Positions 18,527 to 37,800 of a stretch of DNA of 38,894 bases are shown piece by piece. The notes below the pieces were generated by a model. It was not told the DNA's origin. It saw only the letters and a list, made by a program, of their open reading frames with translations, and did no database searches. The position numbers and the translations under genes were made by a program. Each line of letters begins with the position of its first letter. The stretch's first letter is position 1. Origin of the DNA: Pedobacter sp. (GTDB taxonomy: Bacteria > Bacteroidota > Bacteroidia > Sphingobacteriales > Sphingobacteriaceae); assembly GCA_014378705.1 (NCBI GenBank), contig JACMND010000043.1, positions 1 through 38,894 on the forward strand. Reading direction: 5' to 3'.

Positions 18527-19408
18527 TTACCCATTACCCAAAGCTGCTGCACCGCTTACAATTTCAGTAAGTTCGGTTGTGATGGCAGCCTGACGAGCCT
18601 GGTTGTACGATAATTTTAAGGCTTTTAAAAGATCCCCGGCATTTTCAGTTGCCTTATCCATGGCCGTCATTCGGGCACCGTGTTCCGAAGCGTGGGAATC
18701 TAATATCGCTTTGTAAACTTGTAGTTTTATAGATTTTGGGATTAACTGTTCTACGATCTCTTCCTGATCCGGTTCAAAAATATAGTCGATCTGTTTTAAG
18801 GAATCAACCTCATTTACGATACGTGGTAAAGGTAAAAGTTGCTCAGTAGTCAGAATTTGTACCGCGGCATTTTTAAACTGGTTGTAAACCAAATCCACAC
18901 GATCGTAATCACCATCAGCAAATCCCTTCATCACGCCTTCAATAATTTTTGACGCATTGTTAAAGGTTAAGTTGCTATACAGCTCGTTATTGTTGCCAAT
19001 GACCTTGTAATTTCGCTTTTCGTAAAAGTCCTGAACTTTTTTGCCAATAGCTACAATCCTGATATTACCTTTTTGAAACTGACCAGAATACTTATCTGCA
19101 ATCAGGTTATTGGTGGTTTTAATTACATTCATGTTAAACGCCCCGGCCAAACCCCGGTTTGAAGAAACGGCGATGATTAAAACTTTAACCGGCTCACGTT
19201 CCTGAATATAAGGTGAATTAGAATCTTCCAGGTTTGCTGAAAGATTGCCGAGCAGCTCCTTCATCTTACTTGCATACGGGCGCAACTGAACAATGGCACT
19301 TGTAGCCCTCTTCAGCTTGGCAGCCGAAACCATTTTCATGGCTTTGGTAATCTGCTGAGTTGAGCTTACGGAGGCGATACGGTTTCTTACTTCTTTTAAA
19401 TTAGCCAT
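18527..19408 (-). CDS. atpG: F1Fo-ATP synthase gamma subunit
   Basis: The gamma subunit is the central rotor shaft of F1. The 293-residue protein begins MANLKEVRNRIASVSSTQQI followed by TKAMKMVSAAKLKRA, the conserved N-terminal helix, and ends in a long helix with MTAMDKATENAGDLLKALKL and NQARQAAITTELTEIVSGAA, the conserved C-terminal helix that turns inside the alpha-beta hexamer. Length and both termini are normal. It follows atpA after 136 nt that contain an imperfect inverted repeat. Confidence 0.97.
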   Translation of the reverse strand: MANLKEVRNRIASVSSTQQITKAMKMVSAAKLKRATSAIVQLRPYASKMKELLGNLSANLEDSNSPYIQEREPVKVLIIAVSSNRGLAGAFNMNVIKTTNNLIADKYSGQFQKGNIRIVAIGKKVQDFYEKRNYKVIGNNNELYSNLTFNNASKIIEGVMKGFADGDYDRVDLVYNQFKNAAVQILTTEQLLPLPRIVNEVDSLKQIDYIFEPDQEEIVEQLIPKSIKLQVYKAILDSHASEHGARMTAMDKATENAGDLLKALKLSYNQARQAAITTELTEIVSGAAALGNG

Positions 19409-19415
19409 TAGTCAG

Positions 19416-19545
19416 TGTGCAATTTTGATAATGTGCCGATGTGCAAATGTTTGTCCATCCCAACACAATTTGATTTCATTAAGTGCAACCTACATGTAAG
19501 AATGCTTAGAATTTACTCATTGGCATATCAGCACACTTGCACATT
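19416..19545. repeat. Imperfect inverted repeat between atpG and atpA (REP-like)
   Basis: The left arm around 19430-19449 (AATGTGCCGATGTGCAAATG) and the reverse complement of the right arm around 19518-19537 agree at 16 of 20 positions. TGTGCAA motifs flank the core on both sides (19416-19422 and, inverted, about 19536-19544). The outer arm runs up to the atpA stop codon. The TGTGCAAATG-type words suggest a dispersed palindromic intergenic repeat; only this copy is clear in the window. Confidence 0.5.
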
Positions 19546-21119
19546 TAATACTTTCCCGCCAGTTCTTTGGCAACAGTTTCCATTGCATTGGTAATGCTAT
19601 CATCCAGCTTCCCAGCTTTTAATCCAGTTAAGACCTCCGGATGACGTTGCTCCAAATGTTGTATATATTCTGCTTCAAATTCCTTAATCTTATTTACCGG
19701 AACGTTACGCATTAAATTTTTGGTACCTGCGTATAACACGGCCACTTGTTTTTCTACCGGAACCGGCGAAAATTGACCTTGTTTCAATAGTTCCACATTA
19801 CGGGCGCCTTTGTCTAAAACTGATTTTGTAGCCGCGTCGAGGTCTGATCCGAACTTAGAAAAGGCTTCCAACTCGCGGTATTGAGCCTGATCTAATTTGA
19901 GTGTGCCGGCCACTTTCTTCATGGATTTGATTTGGGCGTTACCACCAACACGTGAAACCGAAATACCTACGTTAATAGCCGGACGAACACCTGCATTAAA
20001 TAAATTTGATTCAAGAAAAATTTGTCCGTCGGTAATTGAAATAACGTTTGTTGGGATATATGCGGAAACGTCGCCAGCTTGTGTTTCAATAATTGGCAAT
20101 GCCGTTAAAGAGCCACCACCTTTTACAAGATGCCTGATAGATTCCGGCAAATCATTCATGGCTTGTGCGATCTCATCATTGGAGTTAATCTTAGCGGCAC
20201 GCTCTAACAAGCGACTATGCAAATAAAATACATCTCCCGGATAAGCCTCGCGACCCGGAGGACGCTTTAGCAATAAAGAAACTTCGCGATAAGCAACAGC
20301 TTGTTTTGAAAGATCATCGTAGATAATTAAAGCTGGTCTTCCTGTATCACGGAAAAACTCACCAATTGCCGCACCCGCAAAAGGAGCGTAAAATTGCATC
20401 GGGGCGGGATCAGCGGCCGAAGCGGCAACAATAACCGTGTAAGGCATTGCGCCTCTTTCTTCCAATGTTTTTACTATTTGAGCTACGGTCGAGTTTTTTT
20501 GCCCAATGGCCACGTAGATACAAAATACAGGCTGGCCTGCTTCGTAAAATTCTTTCTGGTTGATAATCGTGTCAATACACACTGCAGTTTTACCAGTCTG
20601 TCGGTCACCAATTACAAGTTCCCGCTGCCCACGGCCAATCGGTATCATGGCATCGATTGCTTTAATACCAGTTTGCAACGGCTCGGTTACCGGCTGACGG
20701 TAAATTACACCAGGAGCTTTACGCTCTAAAGGCATTTCATAAGTTTCACCTAAAATTGGACCTTTACCGTCCATCGGCTCACCTAAAGTATTTACAACGC
20801 GGCCCAGCATGCCATCACCTACCTTAATAGATCCTATTTTTTTGGTACGTTTTACAGTATCTCCTTCTTTAATCTCATCAAAGGCACCTAATAAAACCAC
20901 ACCTACGTTGTCTTCCTCAAGGTTTAAAACAATTCCCTGCAATCTGTTGCCAAATTCTACCAATTCGCCCGACTGCACTTTAGTTAAGCCGTAAACCCGT
21001 GCAATACCATCGCCTACCTGCAATACTGTACCAACTTCTTCAAGTTCTGCTTCAGATTTAAATCCAGATAATTGTTGTCTTAAAATCGCCGATACTTCAT
21101 CTGGTCTTATCTCTACCAT
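19545..21119 (-). CDS. atpA: F1Fo-ATP synthase alpha subunit
   Basis: Alpha is the non-catalytic nucleotide-binding subunit of the F1 hexamer. The 524-residue protein shows the N-terminal [17 protein letters not shown] barrel, the P-loop GDRQTGKT at 171-178, [20 protein letters not shown], the [20 protein letters not shown] Walker B region, and [14 protein letters not shown]. Start, length and motifs are standard. It lies between atpH (191-nt spacer) and atpG. The catalytic beta subunit gene is not in this operon. Confidence 0.98.
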
Positions 21120-21310: not shown

Positions 21311-21856
21311 CTAACCAACTTTCTGCATAAATTCTTTTCTCAATTTATTTAGCTGGCTTGAAATACTCGTATCAAATTGCTTATCACCAACTTTCAAAAT
21401 AAAACCACCAATTAACAAGGGATCAATTTTAGTCGTTAATATTATTTCCCCATGAGTGGCCTGTTTAATTACCATCTCTACTTCCTTTAAATTTTCCTTA
21501 CTAATAGGTGCAGCAGTAGTAACGGTTGCTTTAACTATATTTTTACGAACATTGTATTCGTTAATAAACTCTTTAGCTGTTTCAAATAATATTGCCGAAC
21601 GTCCCTTTCTCACAACGATAGTAAAAAAAGATATGATCATCGGGTGAAGCCTGGGCCCGAAAAGTTGATTTAAGATCCCGGATTTTTTATCTGGTCCAAG
21701 AATCGGATTTTTTAAAACAGCTTTCAGTGTCGGGTTCTCACGAAGCGTACGTAAAAAAAATTCAATATCTGCTTTCACAGCTTCTAAAGCGTTTTGCTCT
21801 ACAGCCAGATCTATTAAAGACTTTGCGTACCGTGATGCTACTTGTATTTCAGACAT
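21311..21856 (-). CDS. atpH: F1Fo-ATP synthase delta subunit
   Basis: Delta sits on top of F1 and ties it to the peripheral b stalk. The 181-residue protein has the OSCP/delta pattern: an N-terminal helical domain beginning VASRYAKSLIDLAVEQNALE, a middle LKNPILGPDKKSGILNQLFG, and the C-terminal signature region IDPLLIGGFILKVGDKQFDT followed by SISSQLNKLRKEF. Length is standard. It follows atpF after 37 nt. Confidence 0.96.
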   Translation of the reverse strand: MSEIQVASRYAKSLIDLAVEQNALEAVKADIEFFLRTLRENPTLKAVLKNPILGPDKKSGILNQLFGPRLHPMIISFFTIVVRKGRSAILFETAKEFINEYNVRKNIVKATVTTAAPISKENLKEVEMVIKQATHGEIILTTKIDPLLIGGFILKVGDKQFDTSISSQLNKLRKEFMQKVG

Positions 21857-21893: not shown

Positions 21894-22403
21894 TTAGTTC
21901 AATTTCACTTCTTTAAGCAGGTCACTTACTAATGCATCCTGCTTGTTTTGATCTTCAAATTGCTTTCGCAAAATTTTCTCTGCTATTTGTACAGATAACG
22001 ACGCTACCTGGCTTTTAACTTCGGCCATGGCCGCAAGTTTTTGATTATCAATTTCTATTCTGGCCTTTTCTATCATCTTTGCCCCTTCGGTTTGAGCAGC
22101 AGATTTGGCATCGCTCACAATCTGATCTTTTAGCTCTTTTGCTTCTTTTAAAATCAGATCCCGCTCAATACGGGCTTGTTTTAAAAGCTGCTCGTTTTCA
22201 TTTGTAAGCTTGGCCATTTCATTTTTGGCCATTTCAGCTTTCGCCAAAGCATCTTCAATAGAGCGTTCACGCTCATCCAAAGCTTTTATAATAGGTTTCC
22301 ATGCATATTTACTCAGCAAAAAGAATAGAATGAGGAAAGCTACTGTAGACCAGATCAATAATCCTGGATCAGGACTTACTAACGGGTTTAATGCTAACAA
22401 CAT
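21894..22403 (-). CDS. atpF: F1Fo-ATP synthase b subunit
   Basis: Subunit b forms the peripheral stalk. The 169-residue protein has one N-terminal transmembrane helix (about 15-33, GLLIWSTVAFLILFFLLSKY), the conserved AWKPIIKALDERE junction and a long charged coiled coil to the end (rich in K, E, A). Length is standard. The gene starts 66 nt after the atpE stop, behind the hairpin at 22436-22468, so its expression is probably reduced relative to atpE. Confidence 0.96.
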   Translation of the reverse strand: MLLALNPLVSPDPGLLIWSTVAFLILFFLLSKYAWKPIIKALDERERSIEDALAKAEMAKNEMAKLTNENEQLLKQARIERDLILKEAKELKDQIVSDAKSAAQTEGAKMIEKARIEIDNQKLAAMAEVKSQVASLSVQIAEKILRKQFEDQNKQDALVSDLLKEVKLN

Positions 22404-22435
22404 ATATATATGTTTAAAATTTTTAGATAATGTAA

Positions 22436-22468
22436 AAATGCGCTGTTACCAATCGCAACAGCGCATTT
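22436..22468 (-). terminator. Strong hairpin with U-tract after atpE (attenuator)
   Basis: AAATGCGCTGTT (22436-22447) and AACAGCGCATTT (22457-22468) form a perfect 12-bp stem with a 9-nt loop. It begins 2 nt after the atpE stop codon. On the transcribed strand the 3' arm runs into five consecutive T (ATTTTTAC). This is an intrinsic-terminator shape inside an operon, consistent with partial termination or protection of an atpE-containing mRNA. The C subunit is needed in far larger amounts than b, delta, a or gamma. Confidence 0.75.
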
Positions 22469-22469
22469 A

Positions 22470-22691
22470 TTAACCTACGTTACCAGTTCCTAAGAACGCT
22501 ACAACCACACCAAACAGGGCTACCGCCTCAACAAATGCTGCCGCGATTAACATAGCTGTCTGAATTTTAGATGCCGCTTCTGGCTGACGGGCCATACCTT
22601 CCATGGCTTTTCCACCAATTTGTCCAATACCGATACCAGCTCCTATTGCAGCTAATCCGGCACCAATTCCAGCGATACTTCCAACGATCAT
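22470..22691 (-). CDS. atpE: F1Fo-ATP synthase c subunit
   Basis: Subunit c forms the membrane rotor ring. The true start is the ATG at 22691, giving 73 residues; an upstream ATG at 22766 would add a non-conserved tail overlapping the end of atpB. The protein is a two-helix hairpin: glycine-rich helix 1 (SIAGIGAGLAAIGAGIGIGQ), polar loop with RQP at 35-37, and helix 2 with the ion-binding Glu55 in AFVEAVALFG. The residue after the Glu is Ala, not Ser/Thr as in sodium-binding rings, so proton coupling is likely. It is followed directly by the strong hairpin described at 22436-22468. Confidence 0.96.
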   Translation of the reverse strand: MIVGSIAGIGAGLAAIGAGIGIGQIGGKAMEGMARQPEAASKIQTAMLIAAAFVEAVALFGVVVAFLGTGNVG

Positions 22692-22731: not shown

Positions 22732-23883
22732 TTAATGTTCGGCGTGTTCTTCAACCGCCATACCAATAAATAAAGCAGATAAGATTGTAAAAATAAACGC
22801 CTGTATAAATCCCACTACCAACTCAATCACACTTATAAATATTACGAATGGAATTGCGATACCAGCTACAAAGACGTTTTTAAGTATAAATATTAAAGAA
22901 ATTAAGCTTAGAATCAAAATGTGTCCGGCAGTAATATTGGCAAACAGTCGGATCATTAGTGCGATAGGTTTGGTAAACAATCCGATGATCTCGACAGGGA
23001 TCATCAGCGGGTATAACCACCATGGAACATGCGGGGTAAAAACGTGGCCCCAATAGTTTTTGTTGCCATTAATTGTGGTTAATACAAAGGTACATAGTGC
23101 CAGCATCATCGTAACGGCAATGTTTCCGGTTAGGTTTGCGCCACCAGGAAAAAATGGAATTAATCCCATCAGGTTGTTTAACCACACAAAGAAAAACACG
23201 GTCAGTAAATACGGCATAAACGCCGCATAACGATAACCCAATTGAGGTCGGGCGATGTCATCCCTAACAAAAAGAATAATTGGTTCTAACACAGATTGCA
23301 AACCTTTAGGAGCTTTACCAACCCGTATTCTATAAGCTTTAGCCACGCTAATAAATACTATCAGTAAAATGATAATGGAAATAAAAAGAGAAACAACATT
23401 TTTAGTGATAGAAATGTCAAATGGAAGAGCGTTAACCACTGAATTGCTTTGATCAAATTCAATATATTCACCGTGCTCATTTGGATTCTCTGAAGCATAA
23501 AGAAACTTTCCGTGATAATTTACAAACCTCAATCCATTTTCAATAAAAACAGTTTTGCCATGCTCATCCTTATCATGTTTGTTGTATAAAAATGTTACCA
23601 AACCATTATTTGTCACTAAAATTACCGGCAATGGGAGAGATACTTTATGATCATCGTGACCCCAGAAAAGCCACTCATGTGAATCAGCAATGTGGTGCAA
23701 AATTGTTTGGGAAATGCTCTCCTTTTCTTCTCCTCCCGCGGTGTGTTTTATTTCGGTAGACGGAATAGAATCAACCGGGATAGCTTGCTGAGAAAAAACT
23801 TTTGGAAAAGCAATTAAGATTAAAACGGCAGATATTAGGGCAACCGCTGATTTTTTTAAATTGAAAAGATGCCTTAAATCCAT
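22732..23883 (-). CDS. atpB: F1Fo-ATP synthase a subunit with long N-terminal extension
   Basis: Subunit a forms the proton half-channels next to the c ring. At 383 residues it is over 100 longer than the E. coli protein. The extra part is an N-terminal signal-like segment (about 11-32) and a hydrophilic, His/Asp-rich region (about 33-155, including HHIADSHEWLFWGHDDHK at 63-80), predicted to be periplasmic. The conserved core begins near 160 and contains WLNNLMGLIPFFPGG and the essential Arg312 in MIRLFANITAGH. Extended AtpB proteins occur in other Bacteroidota. It starts 14 nt after the AtpI-like gene. Confidence 0.95.
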   Translation of the reverse strand: MDLRHLFNLKKSAVALISAVLILIAFPKVFSQQAIPVDSIPSTEIKHTAGGEEKESISQTILHHIADSHEWLFWGHDDHKVSLPLPVILVTNNGLVTFLYNKHDKDEHGKTVFIENGLRFVNYHGKFLYASENPNEHGEYIEFDQSNSVVNALPFDISITKNVVSLFISIIILLIVFISVAKAYRIRVGKAPKGLQSVLEPIILFVRDDIARPQLGYRYAAFMPYLLTVFFFVWLNNLMGLIPFFPGGANLTGNIAVTMMLALCTFVLTTINGNKNYWGHVFTPHVPWWLYPLMIPVEIIGLFTKPIALMIRLFANITAGHILILSLISLIFILKNVFVAGIAIPFVIFISVIELVVGFIQAFIFTILSALFIGMAVEEHAEH

Positions 23884-24723: not shown

Positions 24724-27486
24724 TTGTTTATACCATTCAAAAGACTTCAATTGAAATCTAATTATATAGTAATTTATCTTTGTTATTTACTAATTGCGAT
24801 TTTCCAGATTTCAGGCTGTATCACACCAAAAAATACAGTTACAAGTCGTGGAATGCAAAATTTGACTGCCCGTTATAACATTCTTTACAACGCCAGGGAA
24901 ATACTCAAAGAAAGCGAACAGAATATCAGTTTATCTCATCAGGATAATTATGATGTATTGCTGGATGTTTACGAAGAACCAAATGAACAAATTTCTCAAC
25001 CTGAATTAAAAAAGCTTGATGAAGCAATTTTAAAGGCAAATTCTATCATTAATGATAAGGTTCAAAGTAAGTATGTTGACGATGCTTATTTTATAATTGC
25101 CAAAGCAAACTTTTTAAAATCTAACTTTTACAATGCCACGGAATTTTTTACTTACATATATGGCTCCTATCCAAAACAAACCGAATTAAGGCAACTTTCT
25201 TTAGTTTTTAAAGCACGGTCGCTTATCAATTCGGAACGTTTTAATGATGCTAAATCTGTTTTAGATACCGCATTCAAATATGTAAATACCAAAAGTAAAT
25301 CAGTAGCCGGTTTGTATGCAACCAGCGCCCAACTGGCTCTGTATGGACACCAGGATGAACGAGCAGCGGAAATGCTTGAAAAGGCCGTCAGCTTCTCCGG
25401 TAAAGGCCAGCATAAAATACGCTGGATATTTCTTCTGGCCCAGCTTCAGGAATTAAATGGAAACTTAACTGCCGCACAAAAAAATTATGCACAGGTTATT
25501 AAAAGCAATGCACCATTTGAGATGGCTTTTAACGCGACCTTAAACAGGCTAAGTATAAAAGATAAGCAGGAAGGCCGTAGTTTAAACCGGGACGAGCAAC
25601 TGCTTTCTTTATTAAAGGACGATAATAATGTTAGTTTTTCTGATCAGGTATATTTTGAGATCGCAAAACTCCATGCCGATAAAGGTGAATTGGAGGTGGC
25701 CCTCAAAAATTATAAAACATCACTAAGGAAAAGTTCAGGTAACGATAACCAAAAAGGCCTTGCCTATCGTGCGATTGGGGATATCTATTTTAAACAAAAA
25801 AAGTATGAACAATCAAAAGCTTTTTATGACAGCAGCCTTGCTTCACTTTCACCGCAACATCGTGATTTTGATCTGATCAGAAAAAAAGCCGGCAGTATGT
25901 CGCTTTTATCCGACCGTTTGTTGATAATTGACCGTGAAGACACGTTGCAAATGCTGGCTAAACTACCTGAGGCAGAACGTAAAAAACGGATTGATCTACT
26001 GGCAATAAACCAGGCGCAAAATTTTTCAGGTCAAACAACCAATCCCTCAACTAGTTTGGTGCAACAAACGGCACTTCAAAATACGAGTTCAGACAAATTT
26101 TACTTCAATAATAGGGTAGCTTTAAGCCAGGGATTGGCTGAATTTAAACGTATTTGGGGTAACCGCAAACTTGAGGACAACTGGCGCCGCAGCCAACGGT
26201 CGGCAATTGATATAGCCAACAGTAATTTAAATGGTTTCGGGCTAAACGCTGCCGACAATCCTGATGTAGCTTCAATCGATAGCCTTAACACAAAAACATC
26301 CTTAAATACCGGCATCCTACCTGAAACACCAGAATTGATGGAAGCGTCTAATGGGCGAATTATAGCAGCTTATTATGATATAGGCAATTATTACCGGGAA
26401 GAGTTAAACGACGAAGAAGAAGCTATTAAAACTTATGAATTGATGTTAAACCGGTTTCCGGAGAATAATCTAAAACTTCCTGTGTATTATAATCTGTATC
26501 GGCTTTACGCGATGAAAGATCCAAAAAAATCTCTGGAGTATAAAAATATCCTCTTAAATCAATTTCCTGAATCTCCGTTCGCAAAAGTGATTAACAATCC
26601 TGAATATAATAGAATGAGTGATGATAAGGAGCTTGAATTAAATAATCGCTACAATGAATTATACGATCAATATGTCGCTAAAAATTATCCGGAAGTTTTA
26701 AAGCAGGCAGAAGAAATAAACCAAAAATACAATGACAATAAGCTTTCACCCCAATTGGCCTACCTGCGTGCCCTTGCCATAGGACATACTCAAAAATTAA
26801 ACGTATTAGATAGCGTGTTTAGAAATATAGTAAGAGATTATTCAGCTGATATTCTTATTGTACCCCTCATAAAACAACATTTAGCTTACATAGATTCAAA
26901 TAAATTAGCCATGCAAAGCCGTACATTCGCACTGGTTGATCAGGATCCAAATGAAGAGGTTTTTGTTGAAGAGCCAGCCATTGAACCAGTTTTAAAAAGC
27001 GCATTGGTTTCTACTACACCTGCGGATAATAAGCAGGTAGACAACAATATTATTACCGCTACAGAAAACAAAACCACAGTTCCGGCAGGTAGTTCACCTG
27101 TTGAAAACGGTTTATTCTCAATGACAGAATCCGCTGAATACTACTATATAATCAATGTAATGGACCCTTCTGTTAATCTAAGCTCATCAAGGTTTGGGGT
27201 AGGACAATTTAACCGTGCAAATTTTTCTGGAGAAGGAATTAAACATCAGTTAAAATCGGTTAACAACCAAAATCAGTTGATATTTGTAGGTGTGTTTAAA
27301 AGCAATCAGTCTGCTTTAGATTACTCTTTAAGTATCAATCAGGTTATGAAAGAAATAATGAAAATACCCGTTGATAAGTACAACACGTTTTACATCAGCA
27401 AACAAAACCTGGAGAAATTATCAGACCGGTTAATGATCAATAAGTATTTAGAATTTTACCGGTTAAATTTAAACCTGGGTCAATAA
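24724..27486 (+). CDS. sprE: T9SS periplasmic lipoprotein PorW/SprE
   Basis: PorW/SprE is a TPR lipoprotein needed for type IX secretion and gliding. The protein has about 920 residues with an N-terminal lipoprotein signal ending in ISGC (Cys32 from the TTG at 24724, Cys23 if the TTG at 24751 is used). The family-typical NLTARYNILYNAREILKESE follows. Next come several TPR-like helical pairs (about 110-390, e.g. VYFEIAKLHADKGELEVALK and AYRAIGDIYFKQKKYEQSKA), a low-complexity Gln/Asn/Thr middle, more TPR (about 545-650), and a C-terminal SPOR-like domain starting YYYIINVMDPSVNL. No ATG precedes the lipobox. The class A PBP gene starts 5 nt after its stop. Confidence 0.85.
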   Translation: MFIPFKRLQLKSNYIVIYLCYLLIAIFQISGCITPKNTVTSRGMQNLTARYNILYNAREILKESEQNISLSHQDNYDVLLDVYEEPNEQISQPELKKLDEAILKANSIINDKVQSKYVDDAYFIIAKANFLKSNFYNATEFFTYIYGSYPKQTELRQLSLVFKARSLINSERFNDAKSVLDTAFKYVNTKSKSVAGLYATSAQLALYGHQDERAAEMLEKAVSFSGKGQHKIRWIFLLAQLQELNGNLTAAQKNYAQVIKSNAPFEMAFNATLNRLSIKDKQEGRSLNRDEQLLSLLKDDNNVSFSDQVYFEIAKLHADKGELEVALKNYKTSLRKSSGNDNQKGLAYRAIGDIYFKQKKYEQSKAFYDSSLASLSPQHRDFDLIRKKAGSMSLLSDRLLIIDREDTLQMLAKLPEAERKKRIDLLAINQAQNFSGQTTNPSTSLVQQTALQNTSSDKFYFNNRVALSQGLAEFKRIWGNRKLEDNWRRSQRSAIDIANSNLNGFGLNAADNPDVASIDSLNTKTSLNTGILPETPELMEASNGRIIAAYYDIGNYYREELNDEEEAIKTYELMLNRFPENNLKLPVYYNLYRLYAMKDPKKSLEYKNILLNQFPESPFAKVINNPEYNRMSDDKELELNNRYNELYDQYVAKNYPEVLKQAEEINQKYNDNKLSPQLAYLRALAIGHTQKLNVLDSVFRNIVRDYSADILIVPLIKQHLAYIDSNKLAMQSRTFALVDQDPNEEVFVEEPAIEPVLKSALVSTTPADNKQVDNNIITATENKTTVPAGSSPVENGLFSMTESAEYYYIINVMDPSVNLSSSRFGVGQFNRANFSGEGIKHQLKSVNNQNQLIFVGVFKSNQSALDYSLSINQVMKEIMKIPVDKYNTFYISKQNLEKLSDRLMINKYLEFYRLNLNLGQ

Positions 27487-34800: not shown

Positions 34801-37800
34801 AATAGAAATAACTTATTTTCCGGAACGTATACCATTAACATAGTAGATAATTCAGGTTGCGAATTAAGATCACTGATTGTAAATATTATACAGCCCCCGG
34901 CTCCTTTAATTATTACCCAAACTGCTTTCCAAAATATTACCTGCCCGGAAGGTTCTGATGGATCTATATCTGTTGATGTTACTGGAGGTACCTCTAATTA
35001 TACTTATTTATGGTCCAATGGTGCCAGCACAAAAAACATCTCGAACCTGTTAGCCGGTAGTTATACTTTAACCGTTACCGATGCATTTTTATGTCAGAAG
35101 AGTTTCACTTTTGAAATTACTGCACCGGAGCCAATTATAATAACATCTACTACAAATAATATTGATTGTTTTAACGGAAACGATGGCTCCATAAACCTTA
35201 GTGTTGTCGGCGGTAGCGGAATGTATACGTACACTTGGCAGGACCTCCCTTCAGGTCCCTACAACTTAAGCACCCGCAGTGGTTTAAAAGCAGGTATTTA
35301 CAACATAACCATAACAGATCAGTCAGGTTGTAAGGCTTACCAATCAATAACCTTAATTGAACCGCCTGCATTAACCCTTTCATCTTCCAAGCAGGATGTG
35401 GATTGTTTTGGAGATGCGAGCGGATCTGCAACCATTGAAATAGTTGGTGGGACAGCACCATATACGTATAATGGAAGTGCCGTCACCGGAGATATCATCC
35501 TGTCAAACCTTGCTGCTGGTACCTTTTCAATAACCGTCCGTGACGCTAATGGTTGCGAGGCAATCATAAATATAAATATTAGTCAGCCGGTTAAAGCAAT
35601 GGATTTTACCGCTGTGGTTACGAATGTAAAATGTTCAGGAGATAGTAACGGATCAATTAATGTTAATGGAAATGGAGGAACAGCACCATACACATATAGC
35701 TGGTCAAATGGTTCCACCACGCCAAACTTAAACAGTATGCCGGCCGGAACCTATTCAGTTGTAATAACTGATTTAAAAGGTTGCTTATTTTCAATCAACA
35801 ATATTATAATAACTCAACCTACACTGCCATTAACCGGTTCAACCATAATAACGGAGGTACTTTGTTACGGAGCGAACACTGGCAGTATTGATCTTTCAGT
35901 AACCGGAGGGACTACTCCTTACCGGTATATTTGGTCAAGCGGTCAGCAAACTCAGGATATTATAAATCTTCCTGCAGGAATTTATGAGGTAACTATCATA
36001 GATGCCAATAATTGCCGGGTTGTTCAATCCCTAAGTGTAGCTCAGCCTAACGCACCAATAAGTGTAAGCACATCCGTATCCAATGTTCTATGTTTTGGAG
36101 GTGCAACAGGTTCCGTTACTGTTTCTTCATCAGGAGGTACAGGCCCTTATATTGTCAGATGGTCCACAGGTGAAGAAACACCAACCCGAACTAACCTTTC
36201 AGCAGGCATTTACATGGGTCAGGTAATCGATGCGAATGGTTGCAGCTCCGCATTTACAGTAAGAATTAACGAGCCGGGGATTCTATCAGTTAACATCAAT
36301 TCTACAGAAAATTTATGTGCCGGTAACAATACTGCCTCGGCGGATGCTTTAGTTACCGGTGGAACAGCACCGTATAGTTACGCATGGTCTAACGGCGAAA
36401 CTACCTCAGGCATCAGTAACCTGTTAGCTGGAAGTTATTCAGTTACAGTTACAGATGCTAACAACTGTGTTTCTTCTTCAGCAACGTTAATTATTACTGA
36501 TCCGGCACCAATCGCAATATCGATTTCTCAAACAGATATCAATTGTTATGGCAACAATTCAGGTGCGATTTCAATTAGTGTAACCGGCGGATCAGGGTCT
36601 TATTTTTATGAATGGTCCAACGGTTCAACCGCACAAAATATAAGTAGCCTTGCTGCGGGAACTTATTCAGTAACCGTTTTTGATACCAACGGATGTACTA
36701 AATTAAGCGGGGTAATTACGTTAATTCAGCCCGCTGCCCCTTTATTGCTTACCGCGATTAAACAAAATGTAAATTGTTACAACGGATCAGACGGATCAAT
36801 TTCATTAACTGCTTCAGGAGGAACGGCAGCATACACTTTCCTTTGGGCCGATGGTAATACATCTCCAAACAGAACAGGTTTAGCTTACGGACTATATTCT
36901 GTGGTAGTTACTGATGCTTCCGGGTGTACGTATCCATTAAATGTTCAAATTTACCAACCGAACCCCCTTGTAGTAAGTTTTAACAAATCAGATGCTTCCT
37001 GTTTTGGAGAAAGTACAGGCTTTATTCAATTAAATGTTTCCGGCGGAAGCCCTTCGTATACTTACTCATGGAAGAAAGATGCCTCAGCAATCACCAATCC
37101 TGATCTTAATGCTTTATCGGCAGGAGTTTATGAAGTTACCGTTACAGATTCAAAAAATTGTAATTCTGTCATCACAACGATAACTATCGGCCAACCGGCT
37201 GCTGCTCTTTCAATAATTCTTACAAAAGTAAAAGACGTAAGTTGTAATGGTGCCTCAGATGGAGAATTAAGCATTAACACGCTCGGCGGAACGGCAGCAT
37301 ATTCTTATACCTGGACAAAAAACGGAATCGCAATCGTTGAGCCTGCTTCTAATTCTCTTTCCGCCGGAACATATACGGTTACTGTTACTGATATAAATGG
37401 TTGTTCAAATACATCAGCATCACTAATTATCAGTGAACCGGCTGTGTTAGTTGCTTCCGCATCATCCGGCCAAATAGTATGTAATGGAAATACGACTACA
37501 GTAACCGCTTCTGCTGTTGGAGGAACTGCATCTTACTTATATCGTATCGATGGTGGGGTTTATCAGTCCTCCGCCTTATTTTCGGGAATATCGGCAGGTG
37601 CGCATACCATTACTGCTAAAGACCAGAATGGCTGTACAGCCTCATATACTTTTGTTATCCAGGAACCAGAAATCCTTCAGCTTTCCATCACTACAATTCC
37701 CATCCTTTGCAATGGCGTAGAAGGAGCAACAAGTATTGTTGTTGGCATTTTGGGAGGAACTGCACCTTATAACGTAGATCGTACATTAATATCCGGTACC

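Follow-up and report, generated by a model that had tools for sequence, protein, structure and literature searches.

A covarying RNA hairpin with a conserved pentaloop behind atpE in the ATP synthase operon of Bacteroidota

The spacer between atpE and atpF of many Bacteroidota contains an RNA hairpin whose stem has been rewritten many times while its five-base loop has stayed constant. We describe it here from a stretch of Pedobacter sp. DNA of 38,894 nucleotides (hereafter, the window) and from the corresponding loci of its relatives. The hairpin may be a shared control element that helps to raise c subunit above the amounts of the enzyme's other subunits. ATP synthase holds about ten or more c subunits per complex, and a conserved RNA at the boundary behind atpE provides a testable answer to the question of how c is produced in excess from single-copy operon genes.

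RESULTS

A compact hairpin follows atpE in the window

The minus strand of the window encodes an F-type ATP synthase, with its operon ordered atpB, atpE, atpF, atpH, atpA, atpG (Table 1). The original prediction, made from the letters of the window, had placed a perfect 12-bp stem directly behind atpE, and its coordinates proved right (inverted repeat 22436-22447 / 22457-22468, arms 9 nt apart). Toward the loop, a G·U pair and a C-G pair lengthen this repeat to a 14-bp stem with one G·U pair and the 5-nt loop GATTG, and the whole reads AAATGCGCTGTTGC-GATTG-GTAACAGCGCATTT, then TTAC. The stem begins 1 nt after the atpE stop rather than the 2 nt first given (stop 22472-22470, first paired base 22468). 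The predicted U5 tail is present at 22438-22434, with three of its bases paired and only UU beyond the full stem.

Table 1. Features of the atp operon and of the hairpin behind atpE, in window coordinates
Feature	Position	Strand	Evidence
atpB, F0 subunit a, upstream gene	22732..23883	-	NCBIfam TIGR01131 above cut-off
atpE, F0 subunit c, 73 aa; stop directly before hairpin	22470..22691	-	TIGR01260 above cut-off
Hairpin 5' arm AAATGCGCTGTTGC	22455..22468	-	Inverted repeat, fold, covariation in 26 species
Apical pentaloop GATTG, member of conserved GRUUG class	22450..22454	-	Loop comparisons across relatives
Hairpin 3' arm GTAACAGCGCATTT	22436..22449	-	Inverted repeat, fold, covariation
Short U-tract U5, three of five within stem	22434..22438	-	Sequence; U excess class-wide
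Remaining spacer up to atpF, A+T-rich	22404..22433	-	Sequence
atpF, F0 subunit b, first gene 3' of hairpin	21894..22403	-	NF011041 above cut-off
atpH, further downstream	21311-21856	-	TIGR01145 above cut-off
atpA, further downstream	19545-21119	-	TIGR00962 above cut-off
atpG, further downstream	18527-19408	-	TIGR01146 above cut-off

The 66-nt atpE-atpF spacer folds at -21.7 kcal/mol (z -4.84), a value that none of 200 dinucleotide shuffles reached (mean -8.5), and so has the stable hairpin expected of a terminator. The hairpin is nevertheless not listed by a consensus terminator scan whose rule is 5 T in 8, because only UU is unpaired after the full stem. The terminator-like shape that had been proposed extends to the element class, with its U-tract and lack of promoter excess (see below). 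It had also been called the strongest hairpin in the operon, which holds among compact perfect hairpins only: the longer, imperfect whole-spacer folds of atpA-atpG (136 nt, -37.0) and atpH-atpA (191 nt, -23.5) are more stable, and the atpE hairpin therefore stands out for its compactness and not for overall stability.

Other atp spacers of the window (19409-19544) and of many relatives (A-G, F-H, and H-A of L009-L067) contain long imperfect low-complexity inverted repeats that share no loop, an example from the relatives being TATTGAGTATTGAGA / TCTCAATACTCAATA. Upstream of the operon, a divergent gene at 24724-27486 encodes a PorW/SprE-like type IX secretion lipoprotein.

The stem covaries on the operon strand

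Compensatory changes in the stem, proposed originally as a check, are found across the genus and far beyond it. In an ungapped alignment (A1) of 26 hand-picked, diverse hairpins holding CGRTTGG, a choice that biases the loop columns and not the stem, 91.7% of stem pair cells form standard pairs, compared with 59% after shuffling and at most 46% when the partner is slid by 1 to 3 columns (L071 was omitted for a bulge). Double changes account for 112 cells (34 in the shuffled rows) and are present in 12 of the 13 pairs. Covariation, on less variation, is likewise present in a second set of nine spacers, all from one family, whose hairpins have ACAGG-like loops and a 3x3 internal loop; alignment A4 comprises 9 of the 16 rows of A2, as the Chitinophagaceae rows and L146 are in a different register and were omitted.

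The wobble pairs indicate the strand. G·U pairs outnumber A·C mismatches on the operon strand by 46 to 8 (72 motif spacers, model-selected loci dropped) and by 62 to 8 with those loci included. Covarying stems together with wobbles that favor the operon strand therefore identify a transcribed RNA structure. A DNA palindrome bound by a transcription factor was rejected, since the arms vary with compensation, the center is conserved, and the wobbles are one-sided. With a covarying stem on the transcribed strand and a conserved unpaired sequence, the hairpin has the features of a structured cis-regulatory RNA. A search with Rfam 15 yielded no family above gathering scores in the window or in 14 other loci, and nothing up to E 5 within the atpE-atpF stretch; nor is the element described in the open-access literature searched.

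The pentaloop is constant while the stem is rewritten

The most telling feature of the hairpin is its conserved pentaloop, which the original prediction overlooked and for which a simple terminator or decay barrier would have no need. The loop is 5 nt long in 107 of 136 strong hairpins (model-selected loci dropped), and the final base is G in 118 of 125 pentaloops (model-selected loci included). GRUUG loops are closed by C-G (90), G-C (4), A-U (2), or U·G (1) in the full set, which includes loci found by the covariance model R1. A tetraloop with a bulged G is disfavored as an alternative, given that GRUUG is kept above G-C and A-U closing pairs as well.

Mapped onto a tree of 73 AtpB proteins, built by a quick method and with some long branches, the GRUUG label requires 6 changes, compared with 13.9 when shuffled, and the three stem bases under the loop require 19 among GRUUG rows. 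Such constancy on a stem rewritten again and again, in a loop needed by neither a terminator nor a decay barrier, is a strong sign of a specific reader and suggests that something recognizes the loop.

Pairing of the loop with a nearby complement was considered and rejected: a look around atpE for CCAACC, CCAATC, and words like them revealed no site that the loci share. In some GGTTG loci, CAATCG and AATCG (14 and 23 counts) do gather near -200, within atpE or its start, but these words are not Watson-Crick partners of the GGTTG loop.

The element is conserved in much of Bacteroidota

Within the genus, the best covariance-model match lies directly beside atpF in 19 of 20 genomes, the window's own included; in the twentieth, which is 82% complete, neither the element nor atpF was found. 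Beyond the genus, the 80 loci nearest in AtpB yielded 76 distinct atpE-atpF spacers, of which 55 contain CGRTTGG (RNA CGRUUGG) and 10 more a variant pentaloop (7 GC-RNAGG-GC, 2 GRTTG with another closing pair, and 1 other ending in G). The remaining spacers have another hairpin (6), a weak fold or none (3), or are too short (2). Since about twenty of the 76 come from close Daejeonella-like relatives, the motif fraction is not a phylum average. Strong folding is much commoner in this spacer than in the one before it: a fold of -12 kcal/mol or below is reached by 75 of 77 scorable atpE-atpF spacers (median -22.2), compared with 2 of 79 atpB-atpE spacers. One locus in our collection (L045) comes from a record titled Rhodobacteraceae bacterium; its AtpB is 51% identical to that of the window, and the record is probably mislabelled or a mixed bin.

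A second sample was chosen via atpE and comprised 30 loci and 56 stretches among 294 atpE-bearing genomes, mostly one per genus and picked among the matches listed. The spacer counts given for both samples leave out loci found by the covariance model R1. Each of the 41 spacers sampled from the window's class forms a hairpin, which in 37 has a pentaloop of the GRUUG or variant types. In the other classes of the phylum, a GRTTG pentaloop occurs in 1 of 39 sampled loci (L174) and is absent from the other 38. These include 22 loci with other hairpins, 12 whose spacers are too short for any hairpin, 3 with weak folds, and one (L193) in which the second pattern matched only inside a larger stem. Given that many Bacteroidota outside the class lack the element, it is dispensable for a working ATP synthase generally. 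In two families of these other classes, f13 (L170, L214, L220, L225) and f17 (L182, L183, L212, L213, L217, L218), strong hairpins without the pentaloop stand behind atpE and are alike within each family.

The hairpin is nearly unique to the atpE-atpF spacer

A scan of both strands of 1.34 Mb of the relatives' loci for GRTTG hairpins of at least 9 perfect pairs returned 28, all of them in the atpE-atpF spacer on the operon strand. In the window's own genome, the covariance model found the atpE site at E 1e-6 and the next match at E 6.6; with one convincing match in that genome, a repeat element of the REP or MITE kind was rejected.

Across 296 genomes of the phylum, strict filters left matches at E 0.01 or better in 38 genomes (41 places). 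Among the 30 places given as loci for model R1, 21 sit behind atpE and 9 elsewhere, the latter mostly with other loop lengths. Model R2, which represents the ACAGG class, recovered its own place in 9 of the 10 family f2 genomes, these being the rows used to build it; G144, in the same family, scored only 0.14. Away from atpE, the genus search gave 19 weaker places at E up to 1 (best 5.3e-6), and the nine inspected look like ordinary terminators, some with GATTG, GATTA, GATTT, or GATT loops.

Several single loci may be recorded here. At L129 / L237, one of the R1 places away from atpE, the loop of a terminator-like hairpin is a true CGATTGG, in a genome whose own atpE hairpin is capped by AATGG. 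In the genus, L227 and L229 have similar loops next to other genes, and L228, L232, and L233 (about 1500-1545) share the mid-operon hairpin GGGYATTGCCATTGGCARTGCCC, which separates an ORF of 165 aa from one of 306 or 321 aa, an arrangement that resembles that of atpE-atpF. A second GCGATTGGT lies at 36507-36515 of the window, minus strand, with no hairpin evident by eye.

A short U-tract follows the stem and promoter signals show no excess

Behind the hairpin, the mean number of U is 5.5 of 8 (n = 88, model-selected loci dropped; 5.3 with those loci included, n = 109); the corresponding means are 2.9 for 52 other co-directional hairpins and 2.8 for randomly placed spacer positions. Hairpins at convergent gene ends, which served as stand-ins for real terminators, average 3.6 U and are few (n = 14). 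With loci found by R1 included, the frequency of T is about 0.86 at the two positions next to the last G-C pair and declines to about 0.4 by position eight; positions past that pair hold few G or C by definition, with A equally allowed. In 66 of 106 motif hairpins (loci found by R1 included), the 12 nt that follow this pair contain no T run longer than 4. The U-tract of the element class is thus modest and short, and the U excess is weak in the window.

Between the hairpin and atpF, TAnnTTTG, which we take to be the Bacteroidota -7 promoter element, occurs in 2 of 90 spacers (loci found by R1 included), compared with 3.2% expected per spacer, and it was not seen by eye in the window spacer (22404..22433, minus strand). 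As there is no promoter excess before atpF, the downstream genes probably rely on read-through. Polymerase most likely has to pass the hairpin to reach them, and the hairpin therefore cannot act as a complete terminator.

DISCUSSION

We consider it fairly probable that the hairpin is a cis-acting, leaky mid-operon 3'-end element, acting as a partial terminator, a decay barrier, or both, that favors atpE mRNA and whose loop is kept by a reader. The hairpin and its short U-tract would fold in the atp mRNA once the c-subunit gene has been transcribed, and some of the transcripts would end there, through leaky intrinsic termination or because the hairpin blocks 3'-to-5' decay after processing. The atpB-atpE part of the mRNA would then exceed the downstream part, and excess c subunit could be produced. 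The pentaloop, which is GRUUG in most lineages and ACAGG-like elsewhere, may be read by a protein, by RNA polymerase, or by another RNA that sets or stabilizes this 3' end. Several findings count against such an element. The U-tract is short in the class, with only UU unpaired in the window, and the convergent-gene hairpins it was compared with are few. Most sampled lineages outside the window's class lack the loop, other atp spacers are often strongly structured (A-G in 39 of 55 species, H-A in 24 of 51, F-H in 19 of 44), with the window's A-G spacer the more stable one, and the genus search gave weaker matches away from atpE. The sequence data fit termination and decay protection alike, and the original proposal that partial termination or 3' protection yields more c subunit is partly supported.

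A plain leaky intrinsic terminator, with a loop conserved only by common descent or unusual stability and no reader, is unlikely. The U-tract and the A-rich foot of the stem in the class hairpins agree with it, as do the weaker genus matches that resemble ordinary terminators; however, the stems were rewritten many times under an unchanged loop, and the other strong hairpins of the scanned loci do not use that loop. We are similarly doubtful of a pure mRNA decay barrier, in which an endonuclease would cut downstream and the hairpin would shield atpB-atpE from 3' exonucleases, with no termination. The intercistronic position behind a gene whose product is needed in excess, as well as the strong hairpins without a conserved loop outside the class, speak for this explanation, whereas the protective hairpins mapped in E. 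coli have no U-tract, according to an excerpt of PMC5927463, and those behind atpE mostly have one. Taken with the lack of promoter excess, this difference favors the leaky 3'-end element. A translational element, in which a factor or the hairpin would govern how ribosomes re-initiate at atpF or gain access to it, or how they terminate at atpE, is very improbable: the hairpin does lie between the stop and the next start (median distances, loci found by R1 included, of 13 nt from the atpE stop and 46 nt from atpF), yet these distances vary widely (0-35 and 20-142 nt) and no conserved complement of the loop was evident near the genes.

As an extension of the leaky 3'-end element, we tentatively propose that the pentaloop could bind a dedicated putative protein or RNA factor, which by governing read-through or the stability of the 3' end would tune c supply, possibly by energy state, with a co-evolved version in the ACAGG-like lineages. 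To our knowledge, few RNA-binding factors are known in Bacteroidota, and a constant loop on a changing stem is a handle for finding one.

Several known systems can be compared with the element. The rplL-rpoB boundary of E. coli holds a mid-operon attenuator, a leaky terminator that lowers expression of the genes behind a subunit needed in excess; the proposed atpE element would likewise lower downstream genes, in another operon, and we know of no conserved pentaloop in the attenuator. E. coli has the same atp genes in the same order as the window, but its 61-nt atpE-atpF spacer (fold -14.0, z -2.0) lacks a compact pentaloop hairpin. The c-subunit excess in that species is attributed mainly to translation, and the start-site signals of Bacteroidota differ from those of E. 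coli. The element is also the kind of conserved RNA structure that Rfam curates, although it matched no family there. In the excerpt of PMC5927463, which describes decay-barrier hairpins at malE-malF of E. coli and pufBA-LMX of Rhodobacter, a loop conserved throughout a phylum is not described, and the E. coli hairpins differ further in the missing U-tract; like the atpE element, however, both are strong hairpins inside an operon, behind a gene whose product is needed in excess.
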